Positions 4,761 through 64,000 of a DNA stretch of 64,000 nt are shown piece by piece. This stretch comes from Mycosarcoma maydis (Eukaryota > Basidiomycota > Ustilaginomycetes > Ustilaginales), in NCBI RefSeq assembly GCF_000328475.2, contig NC_026479.1, positions 248,001 to 312,000 on the forward strand, read 5' to 3'. The first letter of the stretch is position 1. Each line of letters opens with the position of its first letter. The translations under genes were made by a program, and so were the position numbers. Under the pieces are notes generated by a model. The model searched no databases. It worked only from the letters and a program-made list of their open reading frames with translations, and was not told the DNA's origin.

Positions 4761-4973
4761 AGCAAATGCAGCCGCCAAATCAAAGACAAACCTTCACAAC
4801 TGAAAAGAGAGCCGCCAGCCGCACTAGATTCACGAATGCGCAGAATCACAAATAGGAGCTCACGCCTACTCGAACAACTCGTGACTGTGACATCTGTCTG
4901 CCCTCTCAACTTGTCTCGCCTCGCTTTGCTGTGCTCTGCTCTGCTCTTTGTCTACGTAAACATTTTCAGTAAC

Positions 4974-5001
4974 GTGGTTGTGGTTGTGGTTGTGGTTGTG
5001 G
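4974..5001. repeat. (GTGGTT)n hexanucleotide repeat
   Basis: More than four units of GTGGTT stand directly before a TCGTGAA/TCACGAA heptad array. Confidence 0.95.
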
Positions 5002-5008
5002 ATCGCAG

Positions 5009-5083
5009 AATCGTGAATCACGAATCGTGAATGTAAATTGATTTTTCTAACCTCATTCGTGATTCGTGATTTGATTCACGATT
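5009..5083. repeat. TCGTGA/TCACGA heptad array
   Basis: Units TCGTGAA, TCACGAA and TCGTGAA run head to tail at about 5011-5031. ATTCGTGATTCGTGATT follows at 5055-5071 and ATTCACGATT at 5074-5083. Because TCGTGA and TCACGA are reverse complements, neighbouring opposite units make hyphenated palindromes (TCGTGA-A-TCACGA). It is the first clear example of the dispersed family described in the findings. Confidence 0.9.
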
Positions 5084-5576
5084 TCAGCCCAAAATTGCGC
5101 ATTTCCACTGACGCGCGAGCGACTCAGCCGAGTGAACCGGTTCGTGAGTCGTAATCGTGAATAAACACCAAACAAACCACGAACCCACCCACGACTCACG
5201 ATCCGTCCTAATCTCGAATCGTGAATCGTGAATTATGGATAGGGGCACCTCATTCACCATTGACGATTGGCTTACTGGCTAACACCTGCCTATTCAAGCG
5301 CCAACTCGAAAATTGCATGAAAACTGTAAGACCGGCTCTTATCACAGTTGTCTTGTTGCCACTCGTCACTCGTGACTGCCACGCGTGCCACACCAGCTCT
5401 GGCTGATTCACGATTCCGTAATTCTCGGTTCAGGATTCCCCATTTGGAATTCGTGTTTCAGGGTCCAACGTCGTTCCTAGTTGGCTCGACTGCGCATCAC
5501 CATCATCCTCAACCCACCTTGTTGCTGTCTGGCCTGAAGTAACAAAAGCCAAGCGACGTCAGAGTCGAGTCACAGG

Positions 5577-6611: not shown

Positions 6612-6766
6612 TCCTCGGCATCGCATTGCCATCACACTTGCACAGCTCCACATGCGCTGCTGCCATCTGCATCCATGACCCACGCGATCCCCGATCCTCA
6701 CGCATGCTTCTATCAAGCTCTGTATTTTTACTGCAGCACTCGCTACACGAGTGCGACAACCAATGT

Positions 6767-10069: not shown

Positions 10070-11030
10070 TCTCAGATCTCGAGCTGGTGCTGGCGTCGAT
10101 CTGCTAGTTGGTTGGTACAAGTGTAGATGCAAGCAAGCGTAGCTGTACACGGTAGGGTGGAAGGTCGCTGCAGCTCGAGTTGGTGTGTGTGTTCATGCGT
10201 CGATCTATGTGTGAAGTCAAATGGAGCACTTGGGGATAGGCTCTTGGACGAGTCCCGCAGACTATGGCGGTAGCGATCAGAAGACGTCGCAACGTGCAAG
10301 TCAATCATGAATGCTTGGCGGTCAAGAATGAGGATTCAGGATTCAGGACTCGTGATTGTGGTTGTGTTTCGTGATTACCAGAATATTCTCTCGACGCTAA
10401 CTCCGAGACTTGCAATCGTGAATCACGAACACAAAAGGCACGCGAGCGTGGAGCCCTAGCTCTAACTCTTACACCTCGCCGAGGCAGCTGTGAGCCAGCC
10501 AAGGCGTGAGGTATGAGAGGCCACCATGTAACCTTGACCACCTTTTGCATCTGACGCTGAATACTCGCAACAGTCACGAGGCACGAGGCACGAGTTGCAT
10601 GTCGCGCAACCGCGTGTCCAGTCACCAGTGTGTCACTTGTGCGCCACAGAGACGGCGAAAAGTGGTGTGACATGCGTCGGCTGCGGGGCAAGTCGCACGC
10701 TGGCGTCATCCCGCTGCGTCAGATTGACCAGTCGGGAAGAACCAAATCCAAAAACCACGCACCACGAAATCAGTCACGAGTGAATCGCAAATCGTGAAAT
10801 CTCGTACGTTCTACCCGATCCTCAAAGCGAATCAGCATTCGTGATTCACGATTGACCAGCTTGCCGCCATCATCAACAGCAGTGACGGACACACACGAAC
10901 CACTCACGGACTCGTGACTATTCATGAGTGACTGGTATGCGATTCATGTCATCCTGATTCTTGCGTTTCGATCATCACGGTGAAAAGCACTCTTCTGTAT
11001 CCTCTACAGCATCCGCCTGTATCCGCTTGC
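10070..11030. other. Intergenic region, hydrolase 5' side / Ubp8 3' side
   Basis: It holds the hydrolase promoter and the Ubp8 3'UTR. TCGTGA-family motifs lie at 10347-10372, 10415-10433, 10573-10592, 10770-10798, 10837-10853 and 10903-10930. No convincing coding sequence or RNA gene was seen. Confidence 0.65.
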
Positions 11031-13473: not shown

Positions 13474-14222
13474 GATGGGCGGATGCTGTTGGTGAGATGT
13501 AGCACTAGGACGTTTATGGGAAACACAGATGTTTGCTGCGGTCTAGGCGTAAATAAGGGGACGGTCGATGTTGCAATGCGTTGCGATGCGATGCGATGCC
13601 AAGGCAGAATGTGTGCAATGTCGACCAGCCGCACAGTGACTGCCAATCACGCCAGCATGCAGCCGCTTGAGAAACTTGCACTACAAGCCGATTCGAGAGG
13701 CATAAGAGTCCACAAGAGAGCAAACTGTAGAGGATATGGTCTACGATTCACGACCCAGGTGTGCACGCCAAGTCGTGTTCACGCGAGACGCTTGCTTGTT
13801 GACTTTCTTCGCAACCAACTTGACTCGTGACTTTCACATTTGACACCAACCCGAAAGCCGCACGCCAAACTCATCTGCTGTGCCTGCAGCACCCTCAGCC
13901 CGCTTACCGCGCTGTGCTGCCTCTATTTTCATCGCCGCACGCCGCACGCCGCACGCCGCACGCTGGCCATTGTTAGATCCACTCGCCGCAAACTCGCACT
14001 CACGACTCTGTGACTCGCACTCCACGCTTACCTCTTCACTGCTTCATGCTTTGCCAAACCGCATCACAGACGCGCAATCACGAATCACGAATGAGACACG
14101 AGACAGGCACAAAACAAAACGATCGCCATCAGCAACAGCACTTGATGATTGAAAGTCGGCCGTGGCTGTATAGTCTTTGAAGCAGACGAAAGGTCGGATC
14201 ACATATTCTTGCTGGCACACGA
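13474..14222. other. Intergenic region, Ubp8 promoter / Lhs1 3' side
   Basis: About 750 bp. A 7-bp repeat (CGCCGCA, about four copies) lies at 13933-13963. TCGTGA-family motifs lie at 13743-13752, 13991-14005 and 14075-14098. No gene was recognised. Confidence 0.65.
13933..13963. repeat. CGCCGCA heptanucleotide tandem repeat
   Basis: About four tandem copies of CGCCGCA/GCACGCC lie in the Ubp8 upstream region. Confidence 0.85.
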
Positions 14223-16982: not shown

Positions 16983-17785
16983 CGTGTGCGATACGGATCG
17001 ATGAGCGTGCTTGGTGCAATTGGAAGCAGGTTTACGACGCTGTCACCAGCTAGCGTCTCTGTGTGATGCACCTTCCTTGAGTTGTGACGATTGTGTATCG
17101 AAGAGGGGAGAGGCGAGTTTAGTTGTCTTGATGGTGTGGGGAATGGTGTGGAAAGAACTGGACGATGAATGGTGTCAGAGGCTACCATTCCTTAGAAGAA
17201 GTGCAGGCAAGGTGCGAGGCGAGCCTTGTTTCTAGGCTGCTACGTGTCCACTTTGATTTTTGATGCGGGTGACGTGCACATTCACGATTCACGCAAGTTG
17301 CCGCCCAGAGAAATCGTGAATCGTGAATCTCGATGCATGACGCTTCGTGCGAAGGTCGCCGAAAATTCGCTGCTTTACTCAGTTGCATTGCTCTAACAGC
17401 TCAATTGGGCCCCACGCCCAGCGCCCGTCCAAAGAAAAAAGAAAGGGCTCATCGACCCTCTCACGTCTATCTCCATCAGCCGCACGCTAAAAGATCAACG
17501 CGGAGAGCTTCCGGAAAAACACTGTGCAAAGAACGAGACAGGCAGTCGTTGCGAGAATGGTCGAGCCAGGTCGGTGGTATATGTACAGAGCGGGGTCCTA
17601 AGTAAGCGTGGAAGATGACATCAAAAAAAAAAAAAGTCTGGGGTGTCGAGCAAGTCGCAGAGCACGTCTCGCGCTCCCTCACTCTCCCTCATCGAAAGAA
17701 AGACGAAGGAGAAGTGACGGATTGGCAGCGACCCGAACCAAGAGCAGGGCCAAGCAAAAGTGAGATGAGATGCAGTTCCGCCTGA
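16983..17785. other. Intergenic region, Lhs1 promoter / Rab5 3' side
   Basis: About 800 bp. TCGTGA-family motifs flank 17281-17330, including AATCGTGAATCGTGAAT. A poly(A) run of 13 lies at about 17622-17634. The rest shows no recognisable gene. Confidence 0.65.
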
Positions 17786-18694: not shown

Positions 18695-19873
18695 GTTTGA
18701 CCAGACGCTTTTCGGGTAGGTGGGAAGCTGTGAGTGTGAGTCGTCGTCTCAAATGATCTAGACGATAGGAGCGTGCCTATCAGGAACAGTGCTGGTAAGC
18801 CTTAGCGGAAAGGCTGAGTTTTGTCGGCACCAAGTCGTGACGATGCTGTTGTGTAGTACAGACACCTTTTCTATGAGCTCGAAGGTCGAGATTGGGACGA
18901 GGGTTCTGTTGCGATGATAATTGGCAAAGCGAGGTGAGCAAAGGTAAAGAAAGCCTGAAGGACGAACACAAGATCAAGAGATATGGTGTGAGATGTCGAG
19001 TGCGAAATTGCAAAGAGACTCACGACTCACAACTTTGTGTGCTTTGTGCTGTGCCTGTGCAGCAGCATCAAGTACAAAGCGTGTGTGGAGACAGTTGGCT
19101 GGCGCGACAAACGAGAAAGGTGGCGCAGCGCAGGCAATACACACACACGCACACACACACAGCCGCGAGCTGGAACCAAGCTGAGCAAAGCTCTGCTCGT
19201 GGCTAGGCACGGAGACCAAAATTCACGATTGCAATCAAGAGTTCAAGATTCAAGATTCACCATTTTCGTGAAAATCGTGAATCACGAATGACGCCTCACA
19301 ACTCTATGAGTTAAGTTAGACTGATGTGCTCTTCTGTAGTGAGTTGAGTCGGCAGAAGAACGAGAACACTCGAAACGATCTAACAGTTCTTGTTTACTAG
19401 CATGTGCCACGTGTGCCATCAGCTCGTGGTTCGTGGTTCATGCCAACATTCACGACTTGTGTGCAAAGCAACGGACTTGGAAACATGCCGTGTCTCGTTA
19501 GTTGGATCGCTTGGCTGCGGCGGGCGGGACGAAAAGCATTCACTCTGGACGATGAGTTTTAAAGGCTTTGCGATCCCGTGCTGGCTGTGCAGGCGCGGTT
19601 AGATTTTTTTGTCAGTGATGGGATCGACCTCCTAACAATCTTGAGGGGCTTTGTGCTTCGTGCTTGTCCTGTCATGCCGAATGCTGTTCTCATCTATACA
19701 TGCACCCGACTTGAAACCAGGCCAATCATCCTTGGTCCTAGTCGCAGGCGTGATCACCGTGCATGAGACTGAATGCGAAGATGGATAGGGGTCGTAGAAG
19801 TACAATTGCGTTGCGTTGCGAAATGAAGCATACAGTTACAAAGTAAGAGCAGTCTCGAGATGCGGGACGGGAC
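18695..19873. other. Intergenic region, Rab5 promoter / NC2 alpha 3' side
   Basis: About 1.2 kb. A (CA)n microsatellite lies at about 19139-19162. TCGTGA-family motifs lie at 19018-19032, 19220-19230 and 19260-19290. Open frames here are short and low complexity; no gene recognised. Confidence 0.65.
19139..19162. repeat. (CA)n microsatellite
   Basis: About eleven CA units, interrupted once by CG. Confidence 0.9.
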
Positions 19874-20464: not shown

Positions 20465-20955
20465 CTTGTCGGTTGTCAGCGACCGTGTTGCTGATAAAGT
20501 TGGACGGATCGAGGCACGCGGTGATGAGGTGAGAGAGATTCGTGATATGTGCAGAAAACGTCGCATTACCGTCAGGCGCGTCTTCACGCTTGAAACGTGC
20601 AGCTGTTGAGATGTGCCGCCAAAAAAATTGTTACGGCCGAAAGAGAATCGACATACAAAGAGCTATCTGTGGCAAGAACGCAGCTTTGATGCCTGTTCCC
20701 CCGCTAAACACGAATCACGAATCAAGCTCGAAGCAAGTCTCGACTCATGGTGACATTCGTGATGGACGTGATACGCTACCATGGCGAGTCAGAATGGCAC
20801 TATGCTTCTGAATCAATGACGCGCAAGCATAGGTGCAAGCATGGGCATCCCTGATCACTTAGACAGCGAGATCTCAACTGATTTGCACACCACCTGCAAC
20901 TGAAAGGAACGACGCGCTGCGATGGTAGACTGGCAAGACCAAAAGAGAAGCCTAC
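20465..20955. other. Intergenic region, CSN3 3' side / NC2 alpha promoter
   Basis: About 490 bp between two genes on the same strand. It holds CACGAATCACGAATC at 20710-20725 and ATTCGTGATGGACGTGAT near 20755-20772. No gene seen. Confidence 0.6.
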
Positions 20956-22627: not shown

Positions 22628-23416
22628 GGCGAGAAGCGCGACGGCTAGCAAGGCAAGTAGTCAGGATCGGGATGCCGGCCCAAGGTGTTGTAGATGAGCG
22701 AGGTGAGAGGATGGAACAGCTGATGATTCGATTCGTGATTGTCACTTTCTTGAGCTATAAGCACGTAACTTTGCTCATTCACGATTTGTGATTCGTGATT
22801 AGGTTGTCCTGAGCGCGGAGTATGTTGGGATTCATAGCGAGAACTCCACATCCTTCCAAGTTCAGCTCGTGGCTCCACAACCCGTGACCCGACGCCGTTT
22901 TTCTGACTATGTAGCCGATACAGGTGTAACATCCTTTGCCTTTTCATTTACGATTTGTGCTTCCGTGTTCGTGAATGGTGTGCTTCGTTGCGGATGCGCA
23001 CGCGCTCAGCGTTTTGTGTGGCGGAATCACAGAGCCGGTAAGGTAACGCTTTGCAACTCACGACTCATAATCGTGAATCGGATCGGCTCGCGTGTATTAT
23101 TATGTATAGCTATACTTTCGTGTGCTTGCGAAGCGAGACACGAGAATCACAAGTTGTGAGGGTGTTGGTCGCTGGCGTGTGTCACAAAATTTGAATCGTG
23201 AATCGTGAATCACGAATCACGCACGACGAATGCGATTCATGTTATTCACCGTCTCGAGTGACTCGTGACTGTTGGCTCGACGTGTGAGTCAGTCACGAGT
23301 GTGAGTTTCGCAACTTGTTGCACAGACTTGGTATTTCGTTGACGCTTCGCTTGCAACCACATCAGCAACGCAACGAGACTCGACGTAATTGCTACGATCT
23401 GCTACACTCTTCAAGC
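22628..23416. other. Divergent intergenic region CSN3/SPT small subunit, motif-rich
   Basis: About 790 bp of shared promoter. TCGTGA-family motifs are dense at 22731-22750, 22776-22803, 22949-22980, 23058-23085, 23193-23232, 23255-23270 and 23288-23302. The run at 23193-23232 has about five heptads in two orientations. No gene seen. Confidence 0.7.
23193..23232. repeat. TCGTGA/TCACGA heptad array
   Basis: Two TCGTGAA units are followed by TCACGAA and TCACGCA, then a decayed CGACGAA. The two halves face each other, giving a long imperfect inverted repeat. Confidence 0.9.
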
Positions 23417-24121: not shown

Positions 24122-24345
24122 ACTTTCCAAGCCCACTCGCACGCTTGCAACCGTCGTTGCACAAATGTACATTTGCAGTTACATTACCTCGGAATGTGCC
24201 ATAAAAGCCACCTTGTCACCTTGTCACCTTCCACGTCTGTGCCTCACAATTCACGATTCAGGCAAGATGGCTGGCGAACTCATGCCAATCTATGTTAGTC
24301 TATGTTGCTGATTGCATAGCAAGCAGATGTCGAGTGAAGCACGCA

Positions 24346-28137: not shown

Positions 28138-29341
28138 GTCGCTAGAGAGTTGTGTTTGGTGTTTTGGTATGGTTCGATACGGAAATACTCTGCTGGAGGA
28201 ACAGCTTGATGGGTCGCTTGTCGGCGTGCGTGTGTGTGCGTTGTGGTCAAGTTCCTGGAAGTGAAGGCTCTTTGAGAGCTGTAGATACGCGCCTACAGCT
28301 GACTGCCTTTCTATGAAGGTGTGCGGGTGTGAAGGGAAACAAGTACGACGGAACTTGAGGGAGCCGCGTATCCAAAACCTCCTCGAAAGTTGTCTTTGGT
28401 GAGCGGATCTGAGCGTTTCGCTTGGTGCTTGCAGGGGACGAGCCACGAGCCACGAGCTACGAGCTACGAGCTGTGTGTTTGACTAACTGAGTCAACTGAA
28501 GTTATTAGTTAACTCAGCGCAACGTGCAGCCAGGCGCGACCCGCCGTGCGCCGAGATGAAAGCCAAAGTGGAGCTGGCAGCAAACATCTCTCATAACTCG
28601 CGACTTGAGCTGAGCATGTGAGCTTTCAAGTGAGCGCGCTCCTGCGTAAGTCTGTGAGTCGTGGGTGCATCGTGAATCAGCTGAAAATAATCCCCGATCA
28701 TGAGTCACGAATGTCGAATAACATCGTGAATTTCGCAAAAGTCGCCGATCAGAAGACTCACGATTTCAGATATCACGATTTATTTTATTTATTCGTGATC
28801 CGTGGATTCAAAAAACGGAGGTGACTTTGTGTGATCCAACATGGCTGAAATTTGGCTGTGTGCACTTGCTCTCGCGGACAGACGCGTTCACGGTTCTATG
28901 GCACATTCGTGATTGACTTGCAGCGTGGAAGATATCTGGAGAGAGCGCGTAAAGAGGCCGTGTCGGGTTGAGATTCAGACTACGCTGGCTCGTGGCCCAC
29001 GCTTGCATACAGCTGTGTTAAGCTACGCTTAGGCTCTGTCTCGTCACGCGTCTCGCCCAACCAAACATGAAAGTCACAGAATTCACAAGTCACGATTCAC
29101 GATTGGTGATTCACGATTGGTGTTGGTCTCGTTGCGTTCGTGAATCACGAATCACGATTTTCCACTTGGAAACGGTTGCTGCGCTCGGCCAAGATCAAGT
29201 TCGTGAGTCTCGTGAGTGCGATGGTGCAAGCTTGATTCCATCACGAATCTGTGCGCCATTCAAGTCTTGAATGTAGTCTTGAATGTGGCCCATTCTCACG
29301 CTCTGCCCTTTCAACACAACCACCAACTTGCATCACCAACC
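28138..29341. other. Divergent intergenic region Sqs1/centrin, motif-rich
   Basis: About 1.2 kb of shared promoter. TCGTGA-family motifs are dense at 28655-28680, 28700-28740, 28757-28800, 28905-28917, 29085-29123, 29137-29160 and 29200-29250. A short repeat of GAGCTACGAG/GAGCCACGAG occurs at 28438-28470. No gene seen. Confidence 0.7.
29085..29160. repeat. TCGTGA/TCACGA heptad array
   Basis: Three forward TCACGATT copies occur at 29092-29119, one of them behind TTGGTGA, then TTCGTGAATCACGAATCACGATT-like sequence at 29137-29159. It lies 180 bp upstream of the centrin ATG. Confidence 0.88.
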
Positions 29342-35523: not shown

Positions 35524-35642
35524 GACTCGTGACTGTAACAGACACATCGACGCACTCACAGACTCACAACTCCTCCATGCTCAGAAATTGTCAATACTCG
35601 TGACTGACTCACGACTCACAAGTTACGCGTACTCACGACTCT
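35524..35642. repeat. ACTCGTGACT-variant motif cluster
   Basis: Several copies of GACTCGTGACTG, ACTCACGACTC and their relatives (ACTCACAGACTCACAACTC) lie close together. They share the TCGTGA or TCACGA core, but with C/G flanks where the commoner class has A/T. Confidence 0.8.
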
Positions 35643-37182: not shown

Positions 37183-37502
37183 TCACGAATTCACACCTTT
37201 GCCCCTCGCTGCGATCCTTGAATGCACATGATGCAATCTCATAATACGCATTCACCAGGCTACGAGCATAGGCATGACCTTGATTGCAATAAATATGCTA
37301 GTCACGAGTGTAGTGTACAGATGAGAACGAATGCAGAGCCAGGTTTGAATTACTTCTCGCCAGGCCTTCTCACACCGCGCACACGGATCCTTTCAGACGT
37401 CTGCACCCTTGCGCCCCATCTGTGATTCAAGCCCAACGAAATGCAAACTTTGAGTCGTCAGCAATCTGTTGATCACAACTCTGCCTGAAACAACATGTCA
37501 AC
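37183..37502. other. Convergent intergenic region Cox18/mS41
   Basis: About 320 bp. It holds ATAATCACGAATTCAC just after the Cox18 stop and TAGTCACGAGTGTAG near 37301. No gene seen. Confidence 0.6.
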
Positions 37503-37985: not shown

Positions 37986-38643
37986 CTTTGTGATGATCGT
38001 GTGCATACACTTCTGCGACGGAGTGTCGATGTTGACGGCGGTAGGTTCAAGAGCGAAGTTGCAGGATCGTGTGAGAGAGGCGTTGCAAATCGTGAATCAC
38101 AAATCGCAAATCACGAATCCCGAATAATCGTGAATCGCCTCGGAACTTGCTCTCTTCCTGCTTTTTTCCTCACGCCTCGGTGCCAGTCACGAGTGGTCAT
38201 AGAAAAATTGCAACGTTTTGGACGCTCTAAATTTGTTTGAAACCACGGTCTTACACCTAAAATGAATTTTCACGTTTTCCTTCTCTACAACTTAGGCGTG
38301 AGGGATTCGTGATTATTCATGATTTCATCAACGTGATTCGTGAAAAACGCTGCAAGCGCTCACTCTTTCACTATTCACGATATGTTCATTCACGATTCCT
38401 TCCAGCTTGCTCACACGCCAAATATCAGCGGCAACGCAAACTCAGACCAAGTGCACACAAGTAAGAAGGGGCAAAGAAACAATGAAACGAAAAGTTCGAT
38501 GCGAATGCGATGGACAAGACGGAACACGAAAGGTCAATACGGCACGACGGATCTGAGCTACCAGACGGGATCAAGTGTTGCGATCATCGTCGAGCATCAC
38601 GTCGCCCTGATACGAGCTGAATGATAGCAGAAACGGAGCATGT
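37986..38643. other. Intergenic region mS41/glyoxal oxidase, densest motif run
   Basis: About 660 bp. The region holds the longest array of TCGTGA-type heptads (38085-38135) and further copies at 38187-38200, 38305-38345 and 38370-38400. It is AT-richer than its neighbours around 38200-38300. No gene seen. Confidence 0.7.
38085..38135. repeat. Long, partly decayed TCGTGA/TCACGA heptad array
   Basis: Seven-base steps read TCGTGAA, TCACAAA, TCGCAAA, TCACGAA, TCCCGAA, then TAATCGTGAATCG. The phase is kept while single bases change, which looks like decay of a tandem heptad array. Confidence 0.88.
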
Positions 38644-40521: not shown

Positions 40522-43268
40522 GGTTGCTACCGTCTATCGATCAGAAGACTGGGTAATGGTTTCAACGATCTTGGATGCTGATTGCTATTCGACAGAGATA
40601 TTCTGATGCGTAATCGAGAAGATGAGAAGCAAGAAAAGAGCGTTGTAGTATGTAGAAAGAATGTGCTGTTGCGTGGTTGTGAGCACGCTCGATGCTGTTC
40701 GTCAGAACGAGGGACAAAGGGGGGAATGGGGGGGAAAGGCGCAGGGGAGTCGAGGTATAGGGGAGAGTATAGATGATCGTAGAGAGAGAGAGAGGAGAAA
40801 AGTGGGACATGTATAGAAAGTCAGTGAAGAGGGGGTCCTGTGATTACCGCAGACGCATGTAGAAGTCGAGGTGGTAGGGACTGCAGCGCCCTCATAGCAC
40901 TCAAATGAAGCATTCAACCCCTGTGATGTGCGGTGAGATAAGCGAGAAGCAGCTGTCCCTGTTCCTTGCAGGCACAGGGTGGGGTTCCAGATGAGCCGAA
41001 CCAGCTGACTAACAGCCAGATGTCGCTGATGCTACCAGTGACTCGGACCTTGTTGATGGAATACTCAGGGGCATATCACGCTGCATACTGTGGCTGTGAC
41101 CCACCACAAGGACGTAAGTGAGACAACAAGGCTTGCACGACCTTGTGGATGAAGCTCGGAACGAACATCGTAGATTCTTGTTCGAAGCTAGGAAGGATCG
41201 AAGGAAGATCACAGGCAGGAGATCAAAGCAAAACGGCAGTCAGCCACAGGCGAACACATGATGTACGGAATGAGCTTCGATTGTCTCAGGCACAGGCCGC
41301 CAAGATGATAGCACATCAGAGGTTACAAAGTCGATTCCCATATAGCAGAACGAGTTCGAGAAGATGGCGAGAAGAAAAGCCCATGTCAGGGAAGGCTTTT
41401 CGACCCTCCATTTCGCCAACATCACGTACTGAAACGAAATCGTTCTTGTTCTCTCACACTGACCATTTGACAACTCACCAGTACGCCCTTGTTGAAGACG
41501 TCGACGGTTGTGGGAGTGAAAAAAAAAAAAAGGTTGCAAGCGAGCCTCGACCCGGCACGAATCAAATCGACTGAAAGGTGTCGCCACTTTCTGCTCTGTC
41601 CCCCTGCAGTTGATTCAGCGGAGAGTTGGGTGGGCGGGCCCCTTTGCAGCATTTCACAAGTGGCATGCATGTACTGTAGCTGAGTAACAATGCGGATGTT
41701 CCGCTTGTCCGGTTGGTTTGATTGTTTGCTGCTTGCGCCCCGCACACACTAGCTCCGGGCTCATCTCTGGTCTTGCACCTCCTCTCAGCTTCCTTTCGGT
41801 TGCTACCAGCCCGGCCTGAAAATGCTATCTCCTTTTCTTGTTATCACAAGTCGAAGCCCGCCGGTGTTTCGGCTCGAAGCTTGAATGCAGACACTCGAGC
41901 GTCGATCAGGACACAGAGAAACAAGTTCATTGGCCACTCGAGTTTGCGATCCTGCAGGCGTGACGGGGAATTGTGGTGTGTGGAATCAAGCACATGAACA
42001 AATGTGAATGAATGGCATGTGATGTAACTCCTCTGTCGAATGTCGATCTCGTCATACGCAACTGAGACATTTGGTCGAACTCAAGGCTGTCGATTAGAAG
42101 TCTCGTTGTGGGGCGGGAGAGGGGAGCGCCACAAGAGAGGTGCAGCGGGAGAGACAGCGAGGCGTGTAGCGAGAAATGTAGACGTGGATAGTTGCCAAGA
42201 GGTCAGGCGACGCCTGATCCAATTGTGTGAGACAATTGCGCATCTTGACAGCTGGCACTAACCGCAACTGAACTGTACTGCACTGTAGAAATTCTACTGG
42301 TACATGAACCCTTTCCGACATTTACGAGTGCCGGACGACGCTGCACAAGCTGAAACAGAGTCAGAGACGGAAATCGACTGGGAGACGGATGGTGCAGTGC
42401 GTCGGAGGCCGAAACGTGCTGTGAGGAGAGGTTGCGCATCGGTAATGCACGTGCAAGGCTCATTCCTTGCGACCTACAGCAAACCCCTCGCATATCATTT
42501 TTCATCAAGCCCGACATACCCGCGACCCCGTTCCGCTTTTCAGGACATCTCACTCGAAAACGCACCAGTCAATCTCACGTTCCTCGACTTGCCCCCGCGT
42601 TATAGACTGCTTTGCTATCCCATTGTGTACACAGCTCTGCAACACGCGATTTGGCAAAATCGTGTATTGAAAATAGGTGCAGGTAAAGCGACGTTGTCGG
42701 GAGTACGAGTCTGCTTCTTTATAAACAGATATACTCAAATTGACAACATAGCATAAGTTAATGGAAGAGAAGTGAGATGCATCTAGATACAAGCGTGACT
42801 GAAGTAGATCAACGACAGTGCCACAGTCGTAAGCGATATTGATTCGGATCCGAGTAACCCAGGTCTGCTCATCTAACCCCTAGTCACGAGTATATTCCAG
42901 CTTGTTAGGCCGACCTGTCTGTTCTTCAACACCTTGTTCCGTCGGAGCGCATTCACGATTCTTCAGCATCGTGAAGCCTTCAGTCCAAGAGAAGGCAACC
43001 GGCGTGACAAACCGTTCAAACAGCACGCTGACTAAGCATGATGTTACAGGGCACGGGCCGGCCGGAAATAACAGGATTGTCCATGCCAGAAATAACTATT
43101 TGTGGATAAGCTGGTTGTCATCCATTATAGCGATTTTTTTCGAGGTACACTACGCTATCTACTAACTGTGCATTTCACAATTACCATGGATGGGCTGGAC
43201 CTCATCCCACTCTCTTACCCACAGGGGTCGCCACACGCAGGCTGTGGGTGCGGAGCACACCCTTTAAA
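40522..43268. other. Gene-poor stretch left of the LTR element
   Basis: About 2.7 kb. It contains a (GA)n run at about 40780-40797, a poly(A) run of 12 at 41520-41531, an ORF of unclear status (42304-42756), and a few TCGTGA-type motifs (42886-42898, 42952-42990). A possible LTR start (TGTTACAGGG) lies near 43043. No conserved gene was recognised, unlike the compact flanks. Confidence 0.6.
42304..42756 (+). CDS. Small ORF of unknown status, weak F-box/2EXR-like motif
   Basis: The ATG-initiated frame has 150 codons. An acidic N-terminus (ETESETEIDWETD) is followed by a basic patch (RRRPKRAVRRG). Near residue 95 comes NLTFLDLPPRYRLLCYPIVY, which resembles the F-L-D-L-P-P-E-I-R start common to fungal F-box and 2EXR proteins, but the rest of such a domain is missing. 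It could be a small gene, a fragment of one, or chance. Confidence 0.25.
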   Translation: MNPFRHLRVPDDAAQAETESETEIDWETDGAVRRRPKRAVRRGCASVMHVQGSFLATYSKPLAYHFSSSPTYPRPRSAFQDISLENAPVNLTFLDLPPRYRLLCYPIVYTALQHAIWQNRVLKIGAGKATLSGVRVCFFINRYTQIDNIA

Positions 43269-43581
43269 AGACATCATTTCCCTTCTTCTAGACGAACTGG
43301 ATCTCATCCTTTCTATTACTCTTTTATCTTACTGTTTACTCACCATCGCGAAAGTAGTTACGTTACGTTTGTTCGACCAGTGCAGCAATCCAACACATTG
43401 CTGCCATACACGCTCGTGCCCTTAGTCCTGTGGATCAGCGTGTTCAAGATCCAAAACCTACACCGACACTGCAGCACCTACACTGCAGACGGTCCCCGAA
43501 TCATCACTAGATATCATATAGCAGAACACCGTCGTTAAGTACGCTCACGAGGTGCGCTGCACACCCCTTCAGAACCGAGCT
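43269..43581 (+). repeat. Left LTR of a decayed LTR retrotransposon (alignable part)
   Basis: This segment aligns with 45246-45552 over about 310 bp, roughly four-fifths identical by eye. Shared blocks include AGTGCAGCAAT, ACACTGCAGCACCTACAC and GCTGCACACC. Many differences are C/T or G/A. The true LTR may begin upstream near 43043 (TGTTACAGGG). The exact ends and any target-site duplication could not be fixed. Confidence 0.8.
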
Positions 43582-44864: not shown

Positions 44865-44880
44865 CACTGCTGCTCAACTA

Positions 44881-44990
44881 GGTGACAAACGTCACCAAGG
44901 CGACGTCATCGAGTACAAGGTGCTTTGGAGAGGGTACCCCGAAGAGACCGCTTCCTGAGAACTCGCTTCTAGCCTCGAGTGAAGTGATCC
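44881..44990 (+). pseudogene. pol C-terminal chromodomain stub
   Basis: The frame reads GDKRHQGDVIEYKVLWRGYPEETAS and then TGA. IEYKVLWRGYPEE is the core of the chromodomain found at the integrase end of chromoviruses. The TGA stands where the family usually has a conserved Trp, so a G-to-A change may have created the stop. Confidence 0.75.
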
Positions 44991-45245
44991 AAGCAAGAGT
45001 TTGAGTCGCGAAGGAGAAGCACTAGGCGTCGCAACGTGTGTGTGGGACCCTCGTACTCACACGCTAATGACATTCTAACCACCTCCCAGCACGGGTTAGA
45101 TCGGCACAGACAGTCACGATTCGTTTGTTGTGCTCGGCACCAACGTCGATGCGCTCGGCACACATTTTTCACAGTTAGTTATTCGTGATTCCCAACAGGC
45201 ATTTTGGAGCCAGAATTCGACTTCCACACACAGGTCGTGTGTGAT

Positions 45246-45552
45246 AGACATCACTTTCCTTTAGAGTGCCACATCCACTCTACTACTCTTTCACCTTACT
45301 ATCTTTTCGCCCTTGTGACTACTCTCTACTACTTTACGTTTTGTTCGACTAGTGCAGCAATCTAATGCATTGCTGCCACACACGCTTGTGCCTTGTGACC
45401 TGTGGATTAGCGTTATTGAACGTCAGAATCTTCACTGACACTGCAGCACCTACACAGCAGACGGAACCTCAACCATCGTCAGACATGCTGTAGCAGTACA
45501 CCGTCGTCAAGAACGTTCACCAGGTGTGCTGCACACCATTCAGAAGCGAGCT
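45246..45552 (+). repeat. Right LTR of the decayed LTR retrotransposon (alignable part)
   Basis: It aligns with 43269-43581 (see there). Between the chromodomain stub and this repeat lie about 250 bp of non-coding sequence with two TCGTGA-type motifs (45112-45126, 45180-45193). Confidence 0.8.
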
Positions 45553-46846
45553 GGGCAAGCTCGAGAATAAAAGCAGCCAAAAGGAATGATGGTCAGTAAA
45601 AGTGCCGCAAAGACGTAGTTGAAAAGGTGCAGCGAAAGTGTATCGGTGCGTGGTGCATGCTGTTTGATCGTGACGAGATGCGAAAGACGTCATGGTGGTG
45701 AAGCAGTGTGTGGGACGACAGTGGAAGGGGCTGAGGCCGACGAAAGTACCATGGCTGCCAAGCAGAGGAAAGCATACTTGGTTGGGCGCAATTGTTGCGA
45801 GCGCAAGTGTGAAAGTGGTGCGGGCGGTGATGGCGGAGAGGAAACGAGAAGAGTTCAGTCAGCCTTGAAGATCGCGTCGAGGACAAGAGCGCAATGTAAA
45901 CACCAACACCAAGCATGTTTGTCAAACGAGTCGGTCCGGAGTGAGTCGAGTCGATCATGTCGAAAGAGATGGCACGAGCCATGAGTGCTTTGAGATCAAA
46001 GCGCTTGCTTTCAACACGACAGTCTGTCTCGAAAGGAAAGTACTGCAAGCTATGAGACGTTTGACCTGAAGGACAAGACTGTATCCTCTGAGCTCTTCGA
46101 TGCCGGCGTCGTCCATAACTTGTTCGAGCATCTCGGCAATGCCACAGAGGAGCATCCCCGTTGACGATCAGAAACAGGTCCGTGATGAGCTTGTGTTACC
46201 CGTCAGCATCGGTCGACTTCGGCTGCCTTGCTCCGTTTGTGAACTCCAGAGGCTTGTCCCAGCGGTCAATCACAGACCAGTGCCACAAAGAGAGTGTGAT
46301 GAACGCCGCCAACAAGTCAGGAGGGTACATGGTGACCCACTGCTCCGCTTGCTGTCACGGCGCCGATGCTCCCTCGTCGTTGCCTCTCCGTCCTCCTTGT
46401 TATCTGTGTCCACCTCGGCAAGCCCCGTTCATGAGTCCAACTTCTTCCACCTCTGCCTAGCCCTTGTCCAAAACTACGGTCTCACTGTCCTCATCAACCT
46501 TATCCTCTTGCTTCACGATGTCCGAGGCCAACGTGGCCACAAAAGAAGAATTGTTGAAAGGGAAGATCTCAATACTAATGCGGTTGAGCTCCCAATTTGT
46601 TTCAGATTGCTAATGGGACCTAAAGAGATGATATGAACAAAACGTGGCAGAACTGCTAGACCGCTCATACACATGTGATGTACTAACTAGTGCTGTATTG
46701 GTTCTAGCTGTTACACCGGAGGTACATCAGCAGTGTACCAGTCGTGAGTCTTGACAACAAGCTTGTTCTTTCGAGGTGTCTCACGTCTCGGTGCTTATGT
46801 CTGTGTCTCGGTCTCGCGGCTCGTGGTTCGTGGCTCGATAGTGCTT
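45553..46846. other. Gene-poor stretch right of the LTR element with a possible broken gene
   Basis: About 1.3 kb. On the + strand, protein-like runs appear in changing frames: MSKEMARAMSALRSKRLL from 45957, then YETFDLKDKTVSSELFDAG from about 46050, and an ATG frame at 46100-46636 of 178 codons. None was recognised. The pattern is that of a decayed gene or chance; no intact gene is supported. Confidence 0.45.
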
Positions 46847-49555: not shown

Positions 49556-50088
49556 GCTGCAGGAGGGCGATGAGCCGGTTCGACCTGATCGTTTGTATGA
49601 CACTACAGCATCTGCTGGAGTCGGATGCGAATATGAAAGCTATCGAGCTTGTCAAGGGTGAGTAAGAAGTTGGTGCTAAGTTAGCTCACGCGAGAAAACA
49701 GCTTTTGTAGCTATCCGTGGTCCAAGCGCGATCCGATTGAAAGCGGCGCGTATGCATGCTTGCATGCATCACGCATGCTGCGCCAAAAAACTCCGTGCTC
49801 CGTGCTCGTAACTCACAACTCCAAATCCACGATCTGTCATTAACTATCACGTAAGTTATGATTGACGTATTCGCATGATTTTCGATTCTGTGATTCACGA
49901 ATCGTGATTGTGCTCGGCGCACCAACTACCCTAATCACGAATCTTATCACGGTAACACCTTCAGAGCCCCAAGTTGAACTGGCCGCTATTCAAGGTGTTT
50001 GCACATCAGTAGAGCCAGTGCATGCAAAGTCTGGCACAGGTGCAGGACATTAATGAGAGAGATCGGATCCGTCATAGTGAGATTGTGG
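49556..50088. other. Intergenic region, nucleotidyltransferase 3' side / DUF726 promoter
   Basis: About 530 bp between two genes on the same strand. TCGTGA-family motifs lie at 49887-49907 (ATTCACGAATCGTGATT) and 49931-49945. No gene seen. Confidence 0.6.
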
Positions 50089-52953: not shown

Positions 52954-53596
52954 GATGCGTGATCGATTTGTGATTTGTGCTCTGGTTTCGACGAGGCGCC
53001 TCTAGCGCAGATGATGTTTACGTTGCGGAACAATAGACAAGGGTGTCTATGCAGGTGGATGGAAGCATAACACGGTGTGCAGGTAGATCTTCTGGCTGCC
53101 GATTCCACCGCATACGACAGTAGTCAGAATAAGACGAGAGGGGTAGTCAAGGATCATTGATGATGGCCACACCGAAGGATGACGGCTGGACTGTATGGCG
53201 GGACGTGCAGAAACGACCTTGCCAGATCAGCGGTTTGTTGAGCTTGATTGTGCGTGCGCTTTTTCGTCCATGTGGCGGACTGGCGCGCGTCGTGACGTAT
53301 CACACAAATAATCCACGATCAGTTAACATACTCGTGACTATGTACAGAAAGAAACGTGAATCAGCTGGCTTGAAACAAAGTCCAAAAAGAAGGCAATGTA
53401 AACCAACCCAAAAAAGCGAGGGTTTTTTGGTATCCGAAAGCCGGACTTCCGTGTTCTAGTTGAAGTGTCTTTCTATAGAGCACGTACAGATTCTCGTCCT
53501 CACTGCCGCCATACCGTTCGGTGAAGTATACACCGGCGATTCAAAAAGCCCGCTGCTCTAAAGCTGCCTGCAGGTCGAAGCGAACGAAGCTGCATC
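52954..53596. other. Divergent intergenic region, nucleotidyltransferase/SUZ protein
   Basis: About 640 bp. Weak TCGTGA-type motifs lie near 52955-52978 and 53330-53341. Nothing else recognised. Confidence 0.6.
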
Positions 53597-54269
53597 ATGG
53601 GAGGTCGGGCTGAAGTGCACGAGATTGTTGCGACATCCAAGGGTAAGCACTCCAAGACACCCAGGGTTGCTCGGCAACGGCAACGGCAGCAGCGGGATGA
53701 TACAGTAGATGAATGGGATGCCGAAAGCAGTGATGACGACAGCAATACCGGAACAAAACAACAAGACGTGTTCAAGACTTCCAAGGACCAGTGGATCGAA
53801 GCGTAAGTCTATGCAACGTCCTTGCAACGCTCTCACCCGCTGAACAAGCAAACTGACACTCGTTGACACGGCCCACTATCACTCACTGACTCAACGTCGG
53901 ATGGAAAGTAATTCGCAGGCACCAGCTGCTGTGCCATTAGTTGCGTCTGCTCCCGGCCGCAGCCTCCCGGATGCCGCGTACGGACACTGCCTGCAGAGCA
54001 ACCCTGGCGCGCAAGCCCCAGCAGCTTTGCCGAGCAAAAGCGGCATCACAATAGCACGAGCACCACCACGCATTCTACAGCGTCCCAAAGAGGCGGCTCC
54101 GGGCATACGAAGCGATGGCGTGGCAGTCAATGCGTCGAAAGCAGGTTCTCAAGAACATAAGACAGTCGAGCAACGGCAACATGAGTATCGTCTAGCGCGC
54201 GAAAGGATTTTCGGTGCTCCATCCAAGCCAACTTCTTTTTCAAGCAAGAACAGCCTGTCGAGAAGCTGA
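53597..54269 (+). CDS. SUZ-domain protein (SZRD1-like), two exons
   Basis: Exons are 53597-53802 and 53909-54269 (188 aa). The 106-bp intron has a GTAAGT donor, a CACTGACTC branch site and an AAAG acceptor. The N-terminus is basic, then acidic (DEWDAESSDDDSN). Near the C-terminus, ITIARAPPRILQRP followed by TVEQRQHEYRLARERIFG is the SUZ RNA-binding motif, as in SZRD1 and R3H-SUZ proteins. The end is Ser-rich (SFSSKNSLSRS). Known SUZ domains bind RNA; nothing more precise is supported. The gene is small and split, so is easily missed. Confidence 0.85.
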
Positions 54270-55702
54270 GAATGTTTTCCATGCTAGAGCTTACCAGAGC
54301 CAATATACCCAAAGGCCTGACCAGTGCAGGAGTGCCACGAGCCGAATGTGTTGTGATGAAGCTGATGTCATGCTTCCAAAGCTCCGCAAGGCTGGACGGT
54401 ACGTACGAATCAGGCCCGAGTCCATCCGCCCAGTTGGCAACCCACAGTCGTCAGTCACGAGCGTACAGTGGGCGGTTTTATGAAAGTTGTTATATCGGCA
54501 AGCCTAGCCCACAAACAAACCTTTGAGAAACGCACGTTACCGGATCCCAGCGATTCGCTAACTTATTCGCGACGAATCTGAAGAGGTTGATCCCACGCTC
54601 TCGGCCAAGACGTAACCTAGAGGCGCTGAGGCTTCTTGGGCTTATTCTATTTTTCTCGGACCCGACATGCCAGTCACAAGTGTGCCAATCGATTTGAGCC
54701 ACAGCAGCCTGACAGTTCCGGTCAGTTCCATCTGAGAATCGAAGCAGACGGATTTCAAATCGTGAATCCATAAATGCACAAGAGAAATACAAATTCCACG
54801 CATTCGATTGTATTCAAGATTCACGTCGGGTAAGGTTGCACCAGGCCGATTCGCTTGGGCGCCGTGGCTAGCGCATGGAAGTTCCAGGAGAATTTTGTAC
54901 TATTCTCGGGGTTCAACCTCATAGACATTCAAAGACAGTGAATGTATGGAGCAGAGCACCGCGAAGAATCACAAATGCCGTATGCACTGACGACACAACC
55001 AGAAGAGAACGTTGATGGACACGGCAGCGCTGAGGAATCGGGCGCGGTCAATGCGGTGCAGGCTTGGATATGCCATGGCCCGATCGCGGCGCCTGGCTGC
55101 GTTTCTGTACCGCATGTGAGAGCGGGCTTTGACAGCTTTGGAGATTGACGGCGGGCGGCGACTTCTGCGTTGGTCAGTTTCGAAACTTTCGGCGGGCGCT
55201 ACGAGGGCCAAGAGTCACACAGTCGGGCGGGTGTTTCTGCCGGTCGATGTTGAAGCTGAGAGCAAAAGGCCAGCAAAGGCCAGCAAAGGCCAGCTTGGCA
55301 CACACTTTCAAATTTGGTGGATTCGAAATTTTCCACTGGCTTGCTCCGGTCCTTTCCTATCCTGTCCTCGATCTTTGGAGCAAGCAGGCACTCAGCCAGT
55401 GTATGTGTTTCTTTCATTTTTCTTCCTCTGGCTCGAATTTTTTCCCTCTTTGTCACTCTTCTTCCGGCCGCGCTATTGGAGCTGTTACTGGAGCTGTTGG
55501 TCTGAGAGCATCGCGCAATCCGTGTGCTTCCACCAATCATTCGTCGCATCTTTGGCGCTCGCTTTGGCCCACTCTTTGGATGAGCGCTCGCCCTCTTTCC
55601 CTCGTCGCCGGTGCAAAATCCCTAGAAAAATACCTTTCTTCATCGGCAGCTTCCCTTCCAACCTTCTCCCACCTACCTACCACCTCTCACAAAGTAGTAC
55701 AG
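54270..55702. promoter_or_regulatory. Upstream region and leader of the ADP/ATP carrier gene
   Basis: About 1.4 kb. Pyrimidine-rich tracts (55335-55480, 55580-55690) suit the promoter and transcribed leader of a strongly expressed gene. A 10-bp repeat (CAGCAAAGGC, about three copies) lies at 55271-55293. TCGTGA-type motifs are present at 54445-54460, 54758-54768 and 54821. Overlapping open frames at 55129-55993 read through the leader and the intron and do not look like protein. Confidence 0.55.
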
Positions 55703-56188: not shown

Positions 56189-56193
56189 TCAAA

Positions 56194-57147: not shown

Positions 57148-57608
57148 ACGGTCTGGACCTTTCCTGTCCTTTTGCGCTAGTCCTCTGTTCTGTGTCGATG
57201 TCGCCGGTGTCAGCCAGCGACCTTCACGGAATAAAAATTCAGTTTCTAGATCTGATCCAATCTTCTTTGCGTCGTTTGACCACTAGCTGTGCGTGAGCTG
57301 TCTCTAATGTTGCCTGGATAAGTGATTCTAGAATGGCGAGTATGCGTTAGCAGCAGTGACAAGCACGAAGCACGAAGGACGAAGAGGAGCATAGAACTTG
57401 GAGCTGTGAGCATGTGCTGTGGCTGTTAGAGCGACACGAGGGCGCGTAAAGTGGAGTCGTGAGTTTGTCGCGTGGGTTCAGCCTGAGCGTGTATGTGTGT
57501 GTGTGTTTTGGCGCGTGTTGAAATTTGGCGCGATCCTCGAGCTTGGGTTGGTAGTTGAGTCACTCTTCTGCGCTCGACCTGCTCTCTTCCATCATATCGC
57601 GCGCCACA
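57148..57608. other. Intergenic region AAC/Rfc5
   Basis: About 460 bp. The AAC 3'UTR and the Rfc5 promoter. A GT-rich stretch lies at 57488-57506. No gene seen. Confidence 0.6.
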
Positions 57609-58767: not shown

Positions 58768-59317
58768 GCGTCCCGCGCTCGTTCACTTGCCATGACGGGC
58801 AATGTCATGACATTTGCTGATCATGACTACGCTTCTTGCGCTGTGTACATCTTGGGCCGAATACATGTATTGCCGATGCGACGAGGTCGCTTGTACCCGC
58901 TGGAGAGCTCGGCACCGGGTGGCGTCTGTGAGGACCGTGAATAGTGCGGTGACACTGGAGAGCATCTTGAACTGCACTTAGCAGCAACGAAGGCCGAGAG
59001 ATGTGTCAACTTGAAATGCCTCCTCTCCCCTTGCTCATTCTTCGCGGCTCGTCATCATCTACATGATCGCTTCACTGCGAAGAACGGATGGCGACCGACT
59101 CAACTTGCGCTGCTGCAAAGCTCGCACAAACTCGTAGATCCAGGCGAAACAGGAGCGTGTACGGAACGATGGCAGTGTCGATACGAATCGGACGTGATCA
59201 GCATTTTCAAACATTTGAAACGAACGCATGTCGAACAACGCCAAAGCCAAGTTTGTTGCGCAAACATTCACGATTGCTGCATTAACGACATCAAGACGCG
59301 AGGCTATGTGCAATCCA
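58768..59317. other. Convergent intergenic region Rfc5/Dbp6
   Basis: About 550 bp. A single ATTCACGATTG motif at 59265-59275. Short open frames are not gene-like. Confidence 0.6.
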
Positions 59318-61930: not shown

Positions 61931-62410
61931 GATGGAGCACCTTGTTTCGCAAAACGTCCGTTTGATGAACGTGGAATAGAGGTGAGGCTAAAGCGCTGGT
62001 TCCAACGGATAGACGTCGATGTGTGCTCTTGGCCGAGGCTGTACCAAGAGTTTCGTATTTTTGAACCCTTGACAACTCACGACTCACGACTCAAACAAGC
62101 CGCTTGCTCCAAAAAATTCTTGAAAGAGGGTCGGAAGCCGGGGAACGCACATGACGTGCAACGTGCGAGAAAATACAGCTTGTTAGACCTTAGGATAGCC
62201 TCCCTAAGTTCTCCACATCCACGATTCGTGATTCAAGGTCCTGAGCCGTGAGTGTGAAGATTGTCAGACATCACTTATCAATAAACGTCAACTGATTCGT
62301 GATTGTCACTCGTAATCCTTTCCGGACACCACATCACGTGCCGACGACTCACTGTCGGACCCTCAGGAGTTCAGTCCACATTGGGCACTATCGGTAGGAG
62401 CTGCGATACG
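61931..62410. other. Divergent intergenic region Dbp6/Tfb4
   Basis: About 480 bp. TCGTGA-family motifs at 62079-62095 (ACTCACGACTCACGACT), 62220-62235 and 62293-62318. Two in-frame sections before the Tfb4 ATG stay open but are judged leader. Confidence 0.65.
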
Positions 62411-63679
62411 ATGCCGGCAGCAACAACGCAAGCCAGGTCGACCACCGAAATCGCCAATGCTGGGTTCTCGCACATTCAGTCATCCAAGAGCACTGGGGTA
62501 CGCACCTCTCCCGACTTTCTTGTGCTCGTGCTGGACATCAACCCACTAGCATGGACGAGGCGATCCGAATCACTCGACAAGGGAAAATATAAGCAAGTTT
62601 CCAGCGATGTAGCTCTGGAAGATGCGCTTGCTGCTATCATGATCTTTCTGAATGCGCACATGGCAATGCAGCACGAGAACGGTCTTGCCATTTATGCTGC
62701 AGCGGGGACAGGAACCGCGCAACTCCTCTACTCGACAGCTTCATTTTCAGCCAAGGCGACGGGTACGGGAGTAGTTAATTCGGCTGCGTCCACCAGCGCA
62801 CAAAAGCCCGATGCCAATACATACCAACACTTCAAACTGGTCGACGACCATCTCGAGCAAGGTATCCGGGCTACGTGCAAGTCGATGTTTGACCGGGCAA
62901 AGAAAGCGCAAGAAGCTGTCCATGCAAGTGCGGATAGTGAAGCGGTCAAGCATGCGACGCTTAGCCGCTCCATCAATGTCGGCATCGTGTCTGCCCTCTC
63001 CCAAGCTCTCTGTCACCTCAATCGGCTTGGACTGAGCGACGCTACGGACGCGGCTAATACTGGCAATGGGATAGCCGCAACGGCGCAGACTCGAGCGGGT
63101 GGCGCAAACACGGCGCAAGGTGCGGGTGGAAGTGTTGGAGCCGGTAGCATAGGCAGCTTCAAGTCGCGTATTCTTATCCTCAGCGTGACGCAGGACGCCT
63201 CAACACAGTACATCCCAATGATGAACTGCATTTTTGCGGCGCAGAAGAAGGGCATCACCATCGACGTCTGCAAGCTGTTTGGCAAAGATACTGTCTTTCT
63301 TCAGCAGGCGTCCTACCTCACTTCGGGCACGTACTTCCGTCTCGCCGATGATGAGGACCAGAGCAAGAGCGATACGGCAAGCGCCACAGATATGCGGTCG
63401 AGTCTAGTGCAGACTCTGCTTACGACGTATCTGCCGTCACGGTCGATGCGAGGCGTGATGAACCTGCCAAGCCTCGAGAAAATTGATTTCAGGGCTGCTT
63501 GCTTCTGTCATCGCAAGATCGTCGATATCGGATACATCTGCAGCGTCTGTCTGAGTTTATTCTGCTCGCCCAAGCCCTCCTGTCTTACTTGTCGGTCCAA
63601 ATTTCCCAAGGAGACGTTGCAACGGTACGAGAATGAGCTCCAATTCACTGCCGATGCGGGCACTGCTGCTCCAGCATGA
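62411..63679 (+). CDS. TFB4: TFIIH subunit Tfb4/p34 (GTF2H3)
   Basis: The ATG at 62411 is used (422 aa); the frame upstream (from 62303) is open but shows no similarity. The vWA-like domain begins SPDFLVLVLDINPLAW, then ALAAIMIFLNAHMAMQHENGLAIYAA, SVTQDASTQYIPMMNCIFAAQKKGITIDVCKLFG and TYFRLAD. The C-terminal C4 zinc region is FRAACFCHRKIVDIGYICSVCLSLFCSPKPSC (first Cys at 364). This is the p34 subunit, which pairs with p44 (Ssl1) in the TFIIH core for transcription initiation and nucleotide-excision repair. A Gly/Ala/Thr-rich insert of about 40 residues sits before FKSRILILSVTQ. Confidence 0.95.
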   Translation: MPAATTQARSTTEIANAGFSHIQSSKSTGVRTSPDFLVLVLDINPLAWTRRSESLDKGKYKQVSSDVALEDALAAIMIFLNAHMAMQHENGLAIYAAAGTGTAQLLYSTASFSAKATGTGVVNSAASTSAQKPDANTYQHFKLVDDHLEQGIRATCKSMFDRAKKAQEAVHASADSEAVKHATLSRSINVGIVSALSQALCHLNRLGLSDATDAANTGNGIAATAQTRAGGANTAQGAGGSVGAGSIGSFKSRILILSVTQDASTQYIPMMNCIFAAQKKGITIDVCKLFGKDTVFLQQASYLTSGTYFRLADDEDQSKSDTASATDMRSSLVQTLLTTYLPSRSMRGVMNLPSLEKIDFRAACFCHRKIVDIGYICSVCLSLFCSPKPSCLTCRSKFPKETLQRYENELQFTADAGTAAPA

Positions 63680-64000
63680 AATTGCAGCGCTAACGTGTTG
63701 CTTCATTCACGACTCTTACTGTGCAAGCTGAATGCAGTCTTCTCGCGCGAAATGACCCGAAAATGGGCACCCGTGACCACGCAACACGAATCACGCACCA
63801 CGCTGTGCAGAGTGCGCGGCCAAGCTTTGCATGTCTTGTCGGTTTGTGCCCAGCTGCTGAGACAATCGTGAATCGCGAATTGGATGGAGATTCACCAGAA
63901 AACTCCACATGAACCGGAAGCTTGACACCACATCGTATCACCACAAACTTGAAAGCCAAGTATAAATCTTGACCTCTTTACATCCACTCAGCTCGTATCG
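63680..64000. other. 3' flank of Tfb4 to the window edge
   Basis: About 320 bp. TCGTGA-family motifs at 63704-63716, 63788-63802 and 63866-63882. No gene seen within the window. Confidence 0.55.

Follow-up and report, generated by a model that had tools for sequence, protein, structure and literature searches.

The window analyzed here comprises 64,000 nucleotides of the Mycosarcoma maydis genome (C2:248001-312000, on contig NC_026479.1) and contains 20 called coding segments, between which lies a short repeated unit built on the hexamer core TCGTGA or its reverse complement TCACGA. Detailed statistics refer to 264 kb, namely the window and C2:1-200000 (52 coding segments), and genome-wide counts (19,664,356 bases in 27 contigs) were obtained by pattern searches, with the reversed pattern as the control. 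Coding DNA, approximately 134 kb in total, was called from open reading frames and codon usage; missed exons fall into the non-coding class, which should lower the measured contrast between coding and non-coding DNA. The window contains 120 cores (63 TCGTGA and 57 TCACGA), in line with the more than 60 copies that an earlier note had reported by eye, and the motif was found at all 12 of the positions named there. Non-coding DNA holds 111 of these cores (4.35/kb) and coding DNA 9 (0.23/kb), a 19-fold difference; in C2:1-200000 the difference is 9-fold (367 cores at 3.53/kb versus 37 at 0.39/kb). Of seven control hexamers none exceeded a contrast of approximately 4-fold, which TCTAGA reached in the window on 3 and 8 sites. 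No other 6-mer of the non-coding DNA is as over-represented as TCACGA/TCGTGA (478 copies versus 122.3 expected from trinucleotides, z = 32); the proposed intergenic excess holds against a composition-matched expectation and the frequency is not equal in coding DNA. The direct heptad steps and opposed pairs described in the same note are both real, as distances between cores peak sharply at 7 bp (34 same-orientation pairs; 13 and 9 opposed) and again at 14 bp (14 same-orientation; 5 and 2 opposed). Its statement that no copy lies in coding regions fails for the nine bare hexamers in called coding sequence and stands for the full unit described below, for which 0 of 81 copies in the window fall in called coding DNA; over the whole of the called coding DNA there are two full units, one of them with equal variable bases.

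Alignment of the flanks showed that the motif does not have generic A/T surroundings, as had been supposed, but an A at position -2 and a T at position +7 (81% each), and that the positions adjacent to the core vary but copy each other. The full unit, A-x-T-CGTG-A-x-T or its CACG form (ANTCGTGANT), occurs 27,565 times genome-wide versus 262 times for the reversed pattern. Both variable bases are identical (hereafter same-x) in 294 of the 332 non-coding units of the 264 kb, in 70 of the 81 units of the window, and in 91 of the first 100 matches listed for contig C1. Isolated units of the 264 kb, defined as those with no second core within 25 bp and counted with coding DNA included, are same-x in 153 of 175 cases, and tandem repeats are therefore not the cause of the equality. 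By comparison, 40 second-order random sequences of like composition contained on average 6.2 units (maximum 13), 1.7 of them same-x (maximum 5). When the triplet repeated around CGTG was counted with no prior assumption, ATT (102), AAT (99), ACT (49), and AGT (44) together made up 294 of 419 cases, and the next commonest triplet reached 12. When inserts of 1-8 bp between identical flanks of 2-9 bp were scanned blindly, CACG/CGTG flanked by 3 bp came first by excess (419 versus 51 expected) and second by z (51.6), amid simple-sequence repeats. The bases on both sides of ANT are C or G in approximately 71% of cases at these units versus approximately 60% at other ANT sites. The equality of x together with ANT on both sides defines the unit as a 4-bp insert between two copies of a 3-bp target, that is, a 7-bp insertion. 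This 7-bp unit with duplicated ANT occurs in both orientations and is nearly confined to non-coding DNA.

Natural duplicates provide filled and empty versions of the same site. In an alignment of eight copies of a subtelomeric repeat, AAT-CGTG-AAT is intact in two (contigs C2 and C6) and present in decayed form in five (four with AATTGTGAAT; AATTGTTAAT in C9), and the C7 copy has only one AAT, with a gap of exactly 7 bp relative to the seven others. A second comparison concerns two pogo-related paralogues on C11 and C21, with 77% identity over 2 kb. Their aligned part contains five indels of 5-16 bp, two of which are 7-bp units in C21. One is ATT-CGTG-ATT, with a left flank that also differs by one base from C11; the other is AAT-CATG-AAT versus plain AAT in C11, within sequence homologous to the C11 open frame. 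The homologous reading switches frame at this second unit and the first frame resumes shortly after, which indicates that the insertion shifts the frame and that one was tolerated in a transposase-derived gene. Both pogo/DDE_1 genes (C11, L041; C21, L042) have long open frames, show no convincing inverted ends, and are possibly domesticated. Alignment of the two ends of C2 gives 27 mismatches over 3,463 columns and, within a chain of units, a 7-bp difference. The 3.4 kb that these ends have in common (L009 1-3900 and L043) points to recent subtelomeric exchange or duplication, and related copies are found close to the ends of many other contigs. A repeat pair within the window, compared in the same way, showed no 7-bp difference of this kind.

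Cut-and-paste DNA transposons (Tc1/mariner, hAT, CACTA) leave short end remnants between target-site duplications when they excise. A constant short core between 3-bp target copies, in both orientations and with empty alleles, has the anatomy of such an excision footprint, and we hold with good confidence that the units are the excision scars of DNA transposons. The earlier note had called the pattern neither a transposon nor a plain microsatellite; the unit itself is indeed no transposon, although it is most likely the scar of a departed one. We infer that a longer element once lay between the ANT copies. Such an element would insert at a 3-bp ANT, slightly favoring sites flanked on each side by G or C, and duplicate the target; on excision, four end bases would stay behind (CACG from one end, CGTG from the other), leaving ANT-CGTG-ANT or ANT-CACG-ANT and a net gain of 7 bp. 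Later visits to either ANT of a scar may build 7-bp chains of both orientations with one x. In coding DNA the resulting frameshift would usually be purged, and scars would survive mainly in intergenic DNA; the near-absence from genes agrees with a 7-bp insertion shifting the frame. These scars resemble the footprints of Tc1/mariner, hAT, and CACTA elements in that an end remnant lies between target-site duplications, both orientations occur, and repeat visits are possible. They differ from usual footprints in having one near-constant remnant (CGTG/CACG), in their number of exact units, in forming the strongest non-coding 6-mer signal, and in that no resident source was found.

At least one related class appears to have left 5 bp. 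The pattern ANT-CTGTG/CACAG-ANT is same-x in 11 of 14 cases in the 264 kb and occurs 1,177 times genome-wide versus 56 in the control (76 same-x among the first 100 matches listed); it makes 8-bp steps, for example at C1:718781-718823, and shares six mixed chains with the 4-bp class in the 264 kb. The CAGTG/CACTG class is weaker (217 versus 61 genome-wide; 71 same-x among the first 100 matches listed), and CTGAG, the mirror form of CAGTG, is marginal (131 versus 81; 38 same-x among the first 100 matches listed). ANT-CTTG/CAAG-ANT, with 15 of 22 units same-x in the 264 kb, stands above other transversions of CGTG and is perhaps a further minor scar class. In addition, TA-AGT-TA (42 versus 6.2 expected) and TA-CAG-TA (32 versus approximately 8) are in excess in the non-coding DNA of the 264 kb, and we take them to have the shape of Tc1/mariner-type excision scars; these words do not follow the orientation of genes. 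An intron branch point was ruled out for TAACTTA, which has no gene orientation (22 versus 20).

The source superfamily is most likely EnSpm/CACTA-like, on analogy, because a 3-bp duplication and CAC...GTG ends fit both clear classes; the source would apparently be lost or rare in this genome. EnSpm/CACTA elements of rust fungi (Pucciniales) are reported to have 3-bp target-site duplications and ends of the form 5'-CAC..GTG-3' (PMC12730594), with which the scar cores CACG/CGTG and CACAG/CTGTG agree. On the other hand, just 4-5 terminal bases are visible here, and the transposase and inverted repeats are unseen. The string 'Ustilag' does not occur in the main text of that paper (PMC12730594). 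PIF/Harbinger elements likewise usually have 3-bp duplications (PMC12730594), and related transposases are present in the M. maydis genome, as two copies and a shorter third match. The two copies (C2:1202128-1202598, L029 / L032; C7:3319-3738, L030 / L033) have a DDE_Tnp_4 match and a convergent second frame, and the C2 copy is without approximately 950 bp present at C7. Harbinger was rejected as the scar source, as the common ends of these copies, read by eye, contain AGAGGTTTTGG and not CACG. Moreover, canonical Harbinger duplicates TWA, not ANT. Tc1/mariner and pogo elements leave comparable scars, and DDE_1 (pogo; 13 matches) and DDE_3 (4 matches) transposases are present together with the excess of TA-AGT-TA and TA-CAG-TA; these transposases, however, belong to families that duplicate TA rather than ANT. 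Pogo/DDE_1 was likewise set aside as the source: of the four loci read among the 13, one has TA-flanked inverted ends starting ACGT and three showed no convincing ends. One pogo-type element, on C23 (L035 683-2818), is approximately 2.1 kb long with imperfect inverted ends starting ACGT and TA on both sides.

Several results weigh against an origin by transposon excision. The 264 kb examined, out of 19.66 Mb, yielded no convincing element with CACG ends and ANT flanks. Pairing of CACG ends that lie 40-9000 bp apart between equal ANT triplets gave 25 pairs matching at 13 or more of 20 positions, and the best among the 21 of these 25 that were listed reached 15/20; once the first seven bases, which mere scars share, were dropped, the best of 531 pairs matched at 10/13, whereas three control cores, each giving 41-66 pairs, reached at most 8/13. 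Extensions of unpaired ANT-CACG (approximately 288 kb) gave a commonest word of only five copies, which was chain-like. The Pfam families Transposase_21 (PF02992) and Plavaka (PF18759) had no match in the genome, both being also silent in control genomes, so that absence does not follow. If CACG 4-nt overhangs annealed with two central mismatches, CATG and CGCG hybrids would be expected; with 14 and 9 same-x sites in the 264 kb, compared with 24 for the other CpG transition TGTG and 12-14 for flank transitions, they do not exceed the level of point mutation and fail as proof of excision. A mixed-repair origin of CAGTG is likewise unsupported, as its mirror CTGAG is barely in excess. The AAT-CATG-AAT unit within the open-frame homologue of C21 means that exclusion from coding DNA is not absolute, the 7-bp difference between the left and right ends of C2 could equally be due to slippage, and a gain rather than a loss of 7 bp is proved at no single site. 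Finally, at 104 of 176 isolated same-x scars in the 264 kb CGTG is on the sense strand with respect to the nearest called gene (p = 0.02), a bias that the scar model does not predict and that is perhaps chance.

Among other explanations, direct micro-insertion survives best, although we consider it improbable. Here an enzyme, perhaps a domesticated transposase or some other recombinase, would cut ANT with a 3-nt stagger and add a fixed 4- or 5-nt word, no long element ever having been present. Such an activity would account for the missing source element as well as for the 7-bp unit with its duplication and two orientations. It presupposes, however, a hitherto unknown enzyme whose 4-nt donor is fixed, and the two clear classes, with cores starting CAC or ending GTG, as well as the TA-flanked mariner-type words, are ordinary products of transposon ends. 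We know of no mobile insertion nearly as small as 4-5 nt, and micro-insertion with more than 20,000 copies, if true, would be an extremely small one.

A widely used binding site for a transcription factor or chromosome protein, with the 10-bp ANTCGTGANT as its target, is more doubtful still and in our view has very little chance of being correct. The unit is near-palindromic, very frequent, mainly intergenic, and slightly strand-biased relative to genes. In the 100-600 bp before coding starts it reaches 3.1-5.5/kb per 100-bp bin, compared with the lower 1.9-3.9/kb after stops. The 100 bp nearest to coding starts hold one full unit of any x in 6,965 bp, versus 28 in the next 7,000 bp. Unit density is 3.22/kb between divergent genes and 2.18/kb between tandem genes, and convergent genes, too, have units between them, at 2.14/kb. 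Moreover, a binding site has no need for two equal variable bases or for exact 7-bp differences between filled and empty sites. Of the three options that the earlier note had offered, a mini-repeat spreading in non-coding DNA comes nearest, and equal x in 294 of 332 units speaks against the binding site.

The chains of units bear on a third explanation, a heptanucleotide microsatellite (TCGTGAW)n spreading by slippage, which as a general account is barely credible and is kept only for the longer same-orientation runs. The counts of TCGTGANTCGTGA (5,219 genome-wide versus 13 reversed) and TCGTGAATCACGA (889 versus 1) are far above their controls, and the longest run noted reaches approximately 10 same-orientation steps at C1:609105-609173; such longer runs probably grew in part by slippage. 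Nevertheless, 217 of the 252 chains in the 264 kb are single units, and isolated units already carry the duplication. Slippage also cannot invert units, yet x is constant throughout in 13 of 15 opposed adjacent pairs as well as in 29 of 32 same-orientation pairs (264 kb). Excision scarring accommodates this pattern, since each scar offers two ANT sites and repeat insertions would give 7-bp steps in either orientation with all x equal. Derivation from an ancestral TCGCGA repeat by CpG deamination can be dismissed. A single transition separates TCGCGA from either core hexamer, but TCGCGA is unenriched (0.27-0.38/kb in non-coding versus 0.45-0.57/kb in coding DNA) and forms a full unit at just 13 sites, nine of them same-x.

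Within the window, the putative scars are distributed as follows (strand in brackets). The first cluster comprises ACT-CGTG-ACT at 4877..4886 (+), the chain of three AAT-CGTG-AAT-CACG-AAT-CGTG-AAT at 5009..5032 (both orientations, x=A), a chain of two with x=T at 5055..5071 (+), ATT-CACG-ATT at 5074..5083 (-), AAT-CGTG-AAT at 5153..5162 (+), a chain of two with x=A at 5217..5233 (+), ACT-CGTG-ACT at 5368..5377 (+), and ATT-CACG-ATT at 5406..5415 (-). It is followed by AAT-CGTG-AAT at 10414..10423 (+), AGT-CACG-AGT at 10772..10781 (-), the opposed chain ATT-CGTG-ATT-CACG-ATT at 10837..10853 (both), and ACT-CGTG-ACT at 10910..10919 (+) and again at 13823..13832 (+). The mixed chain ACT-CACG-ACT-CTGTG-ACT at 13998..14015 joins a 4-bp and a 5-bp scar through a common ACT, and chains of two with x=A lie at 14076..14092 (-) and 17312..17328 (+), with ATT-CACG-ATT at 17280..17289 (-). 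Further along are ACT-CACG-ACT at 19018..19027 (-), ATT-CACG-ATT at 19221..19230 (-), the opposed chain AAT-CGTG-AAT-CACG-AAT at 19273..19289 (both), and AAT-CACG-AAT at 20713..20722 (-). Three scars with x=T occupy 22731..22800, starting at 22731 (+), 22777 (-), and 22791 (+); ACT-CACG-ACT (23056) and AAT-CGTG-AAT (23069) occupy 23056..23078, and a chain of three with x=A (+ + -) lies at 23194..23217. ACT-CGTG-ACT at 23261..23270 (+), AGT-CACG-AGT at 23291..23300 (-), and ATT-CACG-ATT at 24249..24258 (-) precede a 5-bp scar, AGT-CTGTG-AGT, at 28649..28659 (+), ATT-CGTG-ATT at 28905..28914 (+), and CACG scars at 29095 and 29109 (x=T) and 29143 (x=A) within 29095..29152 (-).

In the second half of the window, four scars with x=C at 35525 (+), 35596 (+), 35607 (-), and 35631 (-) form a cluster (35525..35640) that also contains the 5-bp scar ACT-CACAG-ACT at 35554. 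AAT-CACG-AAT (37181) and AGT-CACG-AGT (37300) lie at 37181..37309 (-), and six scars at 38088, 38109, 38126, 38185, 38305, and 38388 span 38088..38397. AGT-CACG-AGT (42882) and ATT-CACG-ATT (42951) follow at 42882..42960 (-), then ATT-CGTG-ATT at 45181..45190 (+), AGT-CGTG-AGT at 46740..46749 (+), the 5-bp scar ATT-CTGTG-ATT at 49885..49895 (+), AAT-CACG-AAT at 49933..49942 (-), ACT-CGTG-ACT at 53330..53339 (+), and ACT-CACTG-ACT, a 5-bp scar of the weaker class, at 53881..53891 (-). The last are AAT-CGTG-AAT at 54758..54767 (+), AGT-CGTG-AGT at 57455..57464 (+), ATT-CACG-ATT at 59266..59275 (-), a chain of two with x=C at 62075..62091 (-), two copies of ATT-CGTG-ATT at 62224 and 62295 (62224..62304, +), and AAT-CGTG-AAT at 63864..63873 (+). 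The TA-flanked words occur as TAASTTA at 11355, 19312, 42754, 49677, 49852, and 54559 and as TACWGTA at 41672 and 53701, with two more TACWGTA copies in called coding DNA at 8103 and 39862. Self-comparison of the 264 kb gave seven repeat pairs. Direct repeats at 43359-43581 and 45330-45552 (80% identical) flank an open reading frame (43845-44864) with a Retrotrans_gag match (PF03732, E 7e-7); together they are perhaps a decayed or domesticated Ty3-type element with remnants of its long terminal repeats.

The units also contain a record of their age. Against 294 perfect same-x units there are 217 with one substitution among the eight fixed positions (uncorrected for background, with palindromic cores halved), which suggests an average decay of very roughly 7-8% per base and hence that scars accumulated over a long time. 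Applying the same-x proportion of 89% to the 27,565 matches gives about 24,000 clean scars genome-wide, in addition to decayed ones; by this reckoning, a single event surviving in each millennium would suffice, given some tens of millions of years. A search of the open-licence PMC literature with motif strings of 13-16 bases returned no paper, and the motif is unmentioned in the related titles and beginnings of abstracts that were listed, often the top 10-15 of more. With their exact empty state and decay by point mutation, the scars form a countable record of insertion and excision overlooked by whole-element searches, and could serve as markers in phylogeny and population studies. The scan for constant cores between equal flanks is applicable to any genome and may reveal extinct transposons from their scars alone. 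For motif discovery in smut fungi the result is a caution, as the leading promoter word probably has no regulatory role; the commonest intergenic word of a compact genome may stem from transposons that came and went.

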